A DNA stretch of 54,529 nucleotides from Acidobacteriota bacterium. Its GTDB lineage: Bacteria; Acidobacteriota; Terriglobia; Bryobacterales; Bryobacteraceae. This document shows, in pieces, positions 35,066 through 36,016 of this stretch; position 1 is the first letter of the stretch; the number at the start of each line of letters is the position of its first letter. The DNA is taken from the NCBI GenBank assembly GCA_016870995.1, contig VFZU01000027.1, positions 1 through 54,529 of the forward strand, in the 5' to 3' direction. Both the position numbers and the translations under genes were made by a program. A model generated the notes under the pieces. The model did not search any database. It saw only the letters and a program-made list of their open reading frames with translations, and was not told the origin of the DNA.

Positions 35066-35620
35066 TTAGTCCAAAATCTTCAACCCGTGCTGGATCACCT
35101 GTTCGAGCAACGCCTCCTCCGGCTTCACCCTCACGAGCGACAGCACCGCTACCATCGTTCCCAACAGCGCTCCAGCCCCCACTTCCACCTGCTTCTCTGT
35201 CATTCCACCTTCCCGTCGCAAGATTCCGGCAAACATCTGTCGATGTTCTTCAAGCGCCCCTTCCACCCGCTGTTTCACCTCATCATCAGAAGCCGACAAC
35301 TCCGACCCCAGCGTCAACAGGTAACACCCCTGCCCCTGCATCGTCGCCAGCTTCGCAAAGAACTCCTTCAATATCTTTCGCGCCCCGCACTTCCGCGCCG
35401 CAGCCTGCTCCCGGATTTGCGTCCCCTCATCGCAAGCTGCATCCAAAGTCGCCAGCAACAACCCCCGTTTATCCCCAAACGAGTTGTACAAGCTCGCCCG
35501 CGACAATCCCGTCGCCTCCGTCAGGTCCTCGATGCTCGCCGCTTCGTAGCCCGCCCGGTGAAACACTTCCTTCGCCTTCGCGATCACCGCGCATCGGTCG
35601 AATTCCAGTGGTCTTCCCAT
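35066..35620 (-). CDS. TetR/AcrR family transcriptional regulator
   Basis: Regulator of 184 residues. The N-terminal helix-turn-helix is plain: VFHRAGYEAASIEDLTEATG and LSRASLYNSFGDKRGLLLAT. The C-terminal ligand domain is helical and variable; it fits TetR regulators with the C-terminal domain of the AcrR type. It lies upstream of an SDR on the same strand and divergently, with only 24 bases between, from the rhodanese gene; either could be its target. A ligand cannot be guessed. Confidence 0.93.
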   Translation of the reverse strand: MGRPLEFDRCAVIAKAKEVFHRAGYEAASIEDLTEATGLSRASLYNSFGDKRGLLLATLDAACDEGTQIREQAAARKCGARKILKEFFAKLATMQGQGCYLLTLGSELSASDDEVKQRVEGALEEHRQMFAGILRREGGMTEKQVEVGAGALLGTMVAVLSLVRVKPEEALLEQVIQHGLKILD

Positions 35621-35644
35621 AATTCCTTTAGATACACTTTATCC

Positions 35645-36016
35645 ATGAAAAGGCTCATCGTAGCGATGGCCTTCGCGTTGGCTGCCTTTGCCCAAACCCG
35701 GCAGATCACCGACGCTGAAGACCTCGCCAAACTCCTCAAAGATGAGAAGAACATGTTCTTCCTCGACGTCCGCGAACCCAAGGAGATCGAAGAACTCGGA
35801 TCCCTCAAGGGTTACGTAAATATTCCCATTGGCGAACTCGAAAAGCGTATGTCCGAGGTCCCCAAGAACAAGACCATCATCACCGCTTGAAACGGCGGAG
35901 GCCGAGCCGCGCGTGCCGCGGACATGCTCACCAAAGCCGGTTACAAAGTAGCCGCATCCTGTGGACTCAAAGATTGGCGCGAGAAGAAGAAACCTCTCGT
36001 CGGAGTCAAGCCTTAG
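35645..36016 (+). CDS. exported rhodanese with TGA (probable selenocysteine) at the catalytic position
   Basis: Starts at ATG 35645 with signal peptide MKRLIVAMAFALAAFAQ. A single rhodanese domain follows (FFLDVREPKEIEELGSLKG, VNIPIGELEKRM). After TIITA at residue 81 comes TGA at 35888-35890, then the frame continues with NGGGRAARAADMLTKAGYKV and SCGLKDW to TAG at 36014-36016. Read through, it is 123 residues, and TGA falls exactly at the catalytic Cys of the C-x-x-G-x-R loop, giving U-N-G-G-G-R. Cys106, placed where rhodaneses have the first Gly of a GG pair, could form a selenenylsulfide with Sec82. A nonsense mutation is the alternative, but the exact site makes Sec more likely. Convergent with the GT gene (11-base overlap). 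Confidence 0.75.
35891..35929 (+). promoter_or_regulatory. candidate bacterial SECIS element
   Basis: Directly after the TGA, the RNA can form a stem of CCGCG (35907-35911) with CGCGG (35917-35921) around the loop CGTGC (35912-35916), extended by GAG (35904-35906) with CTC (35927-35929) across a 5-base bulge. The loop begins about 22 bases after the UGA and contains G and U, in line with the position of SelB-binding loops. In GC-rich DNA such a stem can arise by chance. Confidence 0.45.

Follow-up and report, generated by a model that had tools for sequence, protein, structure and literature searches.

A rhodanese of exported type in Acidobacteriota very likely decoded with selenocysteine at its catalytic position

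Does the TGA in the middle of a small rhodanese frame of an acidobacterial genome terminate the protein, or does it encode selenocysteine (Sec)? The window, by which we mean the whole stretch of 54,529 nucleotides analysed here, is contig C27 of a host assembly of 5.72 Mb in 215 contigs, which is 98.99% complete. Its rhodanese frame contains a single in-frame TGA, at residue 82, and yields 123 residues when this codon is read through. All features of the locus are given in Table 1.

Table 1. Positions of the features at the rhodanese locus within the window
Feature	Position	Strand	Remarks
Sec rhodanese gene (predicted)	35645..36016	+	single-domain, exported-type; 123 residues with Sec82; start ATG at 35645, stop TAG at 36014-36016
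TGA codon read as Sec82 (predicted)	35888..35890	+	catalytic position, UxxGxR loop
Rhodanese domain PF00581	35714..35983	+	Pfam match
Cys106 codon TGT	35960..35962	+	candidate resolving residue
Signal-peptide-like N terminus, residues 1-16	35645..35692	+	simple hydropathy score 2.73
SECIS hairpin (predicted)	35907..35921	+	5-bp stem, 35907-35911 with 35917-35921; apical loop CGUGC, 35912-35916
-10-like box TACACT	35633..35638	+	ends 6 nt before the ATG
Divergent TetR-type regulator gene	35066..35620	-	PF00440; in 2 of 8 genus genomes

The rhodanese frame and its surroundings

The sequence-only reading of this DNA had placed the TGA exactly at the codon of the catalytic cysteine and had taken the gene for a selenoprotein gene. 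The position is confirmed by the frame itself, by a PF00581 match that spans both sides of the TGA, and by the alignment column in which the codon falls. With Cys substituted for Sec82 in the query, this match covers residues 24-113 (E 3.7e-14; 53.4 bits against a gathering score of 22.2). The active loop reads U-N-G-G-G-R from U82 to R87. As had been described, the remaining N-G-G-G-R and the C-terminal half of the domain follow in frame up to the stop codon. The six-residue loop is of the CxxGxR type, and C or U at position 82 and R87 are invariant in the 53 aligned sequences of alignment A5; a second alignment (A1) holds 22 sequences. Besides the position of Sec82, the only cysteine of the protein is Cys106.

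The N-terminus (MKRLIVAMAFALAAFA) resembles a signal peptide, for which we infer cleavage after AFA. Among the 59 family members described below, 48 pass the same simple hydropathy score, their start codons having been chosen mechanically. The rhodanese is thus apparently exported or membrane-anchored.

The neighbouring genes offer little that is conserved. The TetR-type regulator, to which importance had been attached as an adjacent gene, is real, as judged by its PF00440 match, but a similar gene was found in only two of eight genus-level genomes. TetR-linked regulation was therefore rejected as a trait of the family, and the gene is probably a neighbour outside the Sec rhodanese system. On the other side follows a convergent, glycosyltransferase-like gene (PF13506). 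When open reading frames of at least 90 aa in the flanks were grouped, no conserved operon partner was seen among the 25 clusters listed: the largest consist of frames that coincide or overlap with the rhodanese gene itself, and the largest neighbour-like ones comprise 12 and 9 of the 59 loci. In 24 of the 59 members, the chosen ATG is preceded by a box of the form TANA[C/A]T that ends at a distance of 6-7 nt. A looser form of the box occurs within the same range at 3 of 26 picked genes of the window and at 12 of 659 ATG triplets on the forward strand. This arrangement suggests a leaderless mRNA.

Conservation of the TGA among relatives

The most trivial explanation would be a pseudogene or a sequencing error, that is, a Cys codon turned into TGA in this strain or assembly with a dead tail behind it. 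The frame is indeed interrupted by a single TGA, which differs from a Cys codon by one base. Other interrupted frames in the window had been raised earlier as a weakness of the case; a simple gene map of the window contains only two gaps longer than 250 bases, which is compatible with their presence as well as with their absence. The relatives contradict such a lesion. From 67 sequences, 59 distinct family members remained after eight with identical DNA over the compared stretch were dropped. All of them have the codon in question in one alignment column, where 42 carry TGA and the other 17 a Cys codon. The earlier argument that TGA could hardly have fallen on this codon by chance is borne out by these numbers, and far from being unique to the strain, the TGA is common to many relatives.

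Furthermore, the part behind the TGA is under purifying selection. In seven close members the codons +1 to +36 show a mean dN of 0.066 at a mean dS of 0.94 (20 of 21 pairs usable), and the 60 codons before the TGA in the same members have means of 0.138 and 1.19, respectively. A hairpin tied to the TGA covaries as well (see below). Hence, a UGA aligned with Cys in homologues is kept in other species together with a conserved downstream part, and a pseudogene or sequencing error appears so improbable that we rejected it. We consider it very likely that the frame encodes a Sec-decoded rhodanese of exported type, the UGA of which is read with the help of a SECIS element. Thus, what had been observed at this locus is confirmed and its interpretation as a selenoprotein is supported. 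Gene callers that treat TGA as a stop would break such a gene.

The TGA form is widespread. A homologue at E < 1e-15 with one in-frame TGA is present in 28 of 61 genomes (the host and 60 relatives). Carriers with names include a Bryobacter sp. (L070), two loci of Candidatus Solibacter (L098, L102) and a Luteitalea sp. (L104); the catalytic codon of Candidatus Sulfopaludibacter (L078) is one for Cys. In a sample of 396 genomes of the phylum, the 13 best matches, from seven families, all contain one TGA, its position at the catalytic codon having been checked at the loci that were fetched. Thirty loci were taken from the search of the relatives, in which seven further listed matches at E < 1e-15, six of them with a TGA, were left unaligned. 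Of the 80 retained out of 430 relatives, 37 (L070-L106) were counted; the remaining 43 (L107-L149, 31-45% identity) were left out, and none of these has a TGA inside the match. An in-frame TGA or TAG also occurs in weaker, more distant matches, for instance in G059, G020 and G009 and in several of the phylum sample. Two sequences, titled Acidimicrobiia (L088) and Arcobacter (L090), are placed among acidobacterial sequences in the tree and were therefore taken as misnamed bins.

Superimposing the catalytic residue on a tree of the 59 rows, calculated with this residue masked, requires seven changes between Sec and Cys, at least four of which cannot be avoided given the well-supported branches of this tree, itself based on a short alignment; the changes are counted without direction. 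Sec and Cys have thus been exchanged repeatedly.

A hairpin downstream of the TGA and the selenocysteine machinery of the host

It had been suggested to look for a bacterial SECIS element in the bases following the TGA. A covarying hairpin of this type is found there. It begins 16 nt after the UGA, and if the latter is counted as nucleotides 1-3, its stem pairs nucleotides 20-24 with 30-34. The complete 5-bp stem is present in 33 of 42 Sec members, compared to one of 17 Cys members, and 35 of the 42 have the loop CGUGC. Four independent pairs (starred branches) were available, too few for the 0.05 level to be reached; averaged over them, Sec is accompanied by the loop in 3.8 and by the stem in 3.0 of the four. 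Numerous versions with either residue, in which the hairpin is kept or missing accordingly, form a ready-made series in which to study why Sec takes the place of a catalytic Cys.

In 39 distinct Sec rows, 92.3% of the cells are paired. The covariation is 0.365, compared to a mean of 0.143 in shuffled alignments, none of 500 shuffles being as high, on sequences that are the same ones in which the stem had been spotted by eye. At one stem position, 18 rows have G-C and 16 the reverse, C-G. Versions of the stem slid along the alignment reach at most 0.119, and the 17 Cys rows give 0.043, which is below their own shuffle mean. Covariation is weak by another measure, pairs changed on both sides, for which 98 of 500 shuffles were as high. 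The hairpin also constrains synonymous codons: the Arg codon at +8, which lies in the loop, is CGT in 37 of the 41 Sec members with Arg there. CGT makes up 26 of the 300 Arg codons elsewhere in these genes and none of six at +8 in Cys members; the rows are related by descent, so that the Fisher value is descriptive only. Between the seven close members no difference is seen in codons +6 to +11, with dS elsewhere at about 1; a few single codons elsewhere are invariant too.

For bacterial SECIS elements, Fig. 2 of a 2026 review (PMC13188914) gives a loop of 3-9 nt, a stem of 4-16 bp, a G within the first two bases of the loop, a spacing of 16-37 nt between UGA and loop and a minimum free energy (MFE) of at most -7.5 kcal/mol. 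The hairpin lies within all limits of that figure, with a loop of 5 nt, a stem of 5 bp, G as the second loop base, a distance of 21 nt and an MFE of -7.8 kcal/mol if one flanking base per side is included (-6.5 for the bare 15 nt). When the 45 nt after the UGA are folded, the MFE structure (-14.8) includes the stem; the stem is absent from the folds of the 57 nt after the UGA and of 63 nt including the UGA, and RNAalifold did not return it from the 42 sequences. Rfam gave no match over the gathering score in the window and, near the gene, one match at chance level (E 2.5). Five Sec members (L017, L021, L031, L083, L106), in which the loop is without the CGT codon, have deviating or incomplete stems and may use another hairpin.

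A second prerequisite is the machinery itself, whose absence from the genome had been named as an argument against Sec. The search for selA, selB, selC and selD found all four in the host: selA with 467.9 bits (above the curated cut-off), selB with 358.1 bits (cut-off 242.25), the tRNA-Sec gene selC with 73.1 bits (cut-off 47) and selD with 369.4 bits (cut-off 125). ARAGORN classifies the selC product as tRNA-SeC with the anticodon TCA. Judged by its gene content, the host should indeed make selenocysteine.

The selD gene of the host (L150, C3:70063-70986, minus strand) has an in-frame TGA of its own, within AAGUASK, presumably where SelD has its active site. It is followed by an 8-bp hairpin with the loop GGU. 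With the T of the TGA as nucleotide 1, this hairpin and the rhodanese stem both end at nucleotide 34. SelD is therefore probably a selenoprotein too, and a second host gene would need UGA to be read as Sec.

Across genomes the machinery is less informative. Among those at least 90% complete, a strong tRNA-Sec was found in 23 of 23 with the Sec rhodanese and in 22 of 28 without it, and a SelB over the cut-off in 22 of 23 and 23 of 28, respectively (p 0.027 for tRNA-Sec, 0.20 for SelB). Over all 61 genomes the co-occurrence is not significant (p 0.12 and 0.32). With a machinery that is near-universal in this sample, its co-occurrence with the Sec rhodanese says little on its own. A strong tRNA-Sec is missing from three genomes that have the TGA form, and a SelB over the cut-off from three; the only one of these exceptions that is not clearly an incomplete assembly is G010, 92% complete and without SelB. 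A genome of the same genus as the host (G006, 4 contigs, 98% complete) has neither the Sec rhodanese nor a SelB over the cut-off nor a tRNA-Sec above 60 bits; the Sec trait has probably been lost there, within the genus.

Cys106, possible chemistry and known rhodaneses

Cys106 had been proposed to occupy the usual GG position of the fold and to pair with Sec82. The first part holds, as Cys106 takes the place of the first Gly in the GG of other members. A Cys 24 residues after the catalytic position is shared by 34 of 42 Sec members and 9 of 17 Cys members. The eight remaining Sec members have Gly (6) or Met (2) instead; therefore Cys106 is not required for the use of Sec. Because its position follows the strand next to the catalytic strand of the rhodanese fold, a contact with the loop is plausible. 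The conservation of Cys106 fits the proposed pairing with Sec82.

Decoding of the UGA by SelB and tRNA-Sec, helped by the hairpin just downstream, is supported to the extent that sequence allows. For the protein the following mechanism can be proposed. Beyond the cytoplasm, Sec82 of the UxxGxR loop would attack a sulfane-sulfur donor and bind its sulfur in a selenosulfide. Cys106, which should lie next to the loop, would then close a Se-S bond and release sulfide, or pass the sulfur on, and a thiol system would re-reduce the enzyme. This catalytic scheme has in our view about even chances of being correct. We are more tentative about its evolutionary extension: possibly, an exported clade of Acidobacteriota converted a one-nucleophile sulfurtransferase into a selenium redox enzyme with two catalytic residues, acting as an extracytoplasmic sulfane-sulfur or persulfide reductase, in which Cys106 replaced the first Gly of GG as resolving residue and was kept as partner while Sec and Cys were swapped repeatedly. 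The conserved second Cys makes a Sec-Cys mechanism in a rhodanese open to direct testing.

Two other assignments of function were weighed. Rhodanese catalysis needs one nucleophile, and the protein could be a plain sulfurtransferase in which Sec merely speeds up the usual ping-pong reaction and Cys106 is structural. Branches with GG and without Cys106 which nevertheless carry Sec (L025, L032-L035) would agree with this. On the other hand, Cys106 is found in 34 of 42 Sec members though GG is usual elsewhere in the fold, and we regard a plain sulfurtransferase as rather unlikely. In this second Sec branch with the usual GG, several members show lipobox-like or lipoprotein-like starts.

Alternatively, the protein might be a thiol-dependent redox enzyme resembling peroxidases, disulfide reductases or arsenate reductases, with a Se-S cycle between Sec82 and Cys106 driven by an oxidant. 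Enzymes of the Cdc25 or ACR2 type have five residues between Cys and Arg; here four lie between U82 and R87, as in rhodaneses, so that the protein does not belong to that type, and its nearest relatives in Pfam, NCBIfam and PDB are rhodaneses. A conserved partner Cys106 of Sec or Cys in an exported-type protein speaks for such an enzyme, as does the statement in PMC9312934 that predicted prokaryotic selenoproteins mostly resemble thiol oxidoreductases. All in all, we hold this function, too, to be rather unlikely.

The closest solved structures by profile (6mxv, 1yt8, 5ve3; E 4.4e-29 to 7.4e-22) have the same domain, but no Cys at the position of Cys106 in the best three sequences aligned. In NCBIfam, no model scored over its cut-off with the rhodanese of the window. 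PspE-type thiosulfate sulfurtransferases are small single-domain rhodaneses, too, and PspE is exported; they have an active-site Cys, and the protein stays below the cut-offs of both models (NF007627, 34.6 bits versus 102; TIGR02981, 32 bits versus 126.3).

That Sec-containing rhodaneses may be known had been stated correctly: the review PMC13188914 distinguishes five rhodanese-like selenoprotein forms. Its forms 2 (MBM9537886.1) and 4 (MCY3690685.1) are listed there with PF00581 and the motif UxxG. Like the protein described here, they have a rhodanese domain with one Sec as the first residue of a CxxGxR-type loop, and residues 82-85 (UNGG) match the listed motif. This comparison is by description only, and one of these forms may be the same family. 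A membership in form 3 was rejected: NF041203 (rhodanese_LYCAU, a rhodanese-related (seleno)protein) reaches 38.5 bits on residues 6-117 where its cut-off demands as much as 115, and its listed motif is CxU instead of UxxG. Form 5 (TsoB, NF045694) is absent among the 14 NCBIfam families found at E up to 0.01. Thus, the rhodanese of the window is very probably a further selenoprotein of a kind known in outline, with the conserved second Cys as its distinctive feature; the present description of Cys106 and of the exported-type N-terminus covers only the acidobacterial members.

In the open-licence PMC literature on selenoproteins or rhodaneses of Acidobacteria/Acidobacteriota and on Solibacter usitatus, no title or passage that came up dealt with this family. 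Elsewhere, a Sargasso Sea table (PMC1088965) counts three Sec-containing rhodanese-related sulfurtransferases, and a survey table (PMC5029168) has an entry for a sulfurtransferase homologous to a rhodanese-like protein. For the Acidobacteriota, to which a well-supported selenoprotein family is added here, the figures given in an early survey (PMC1794560) are four selenoproteins in three families.
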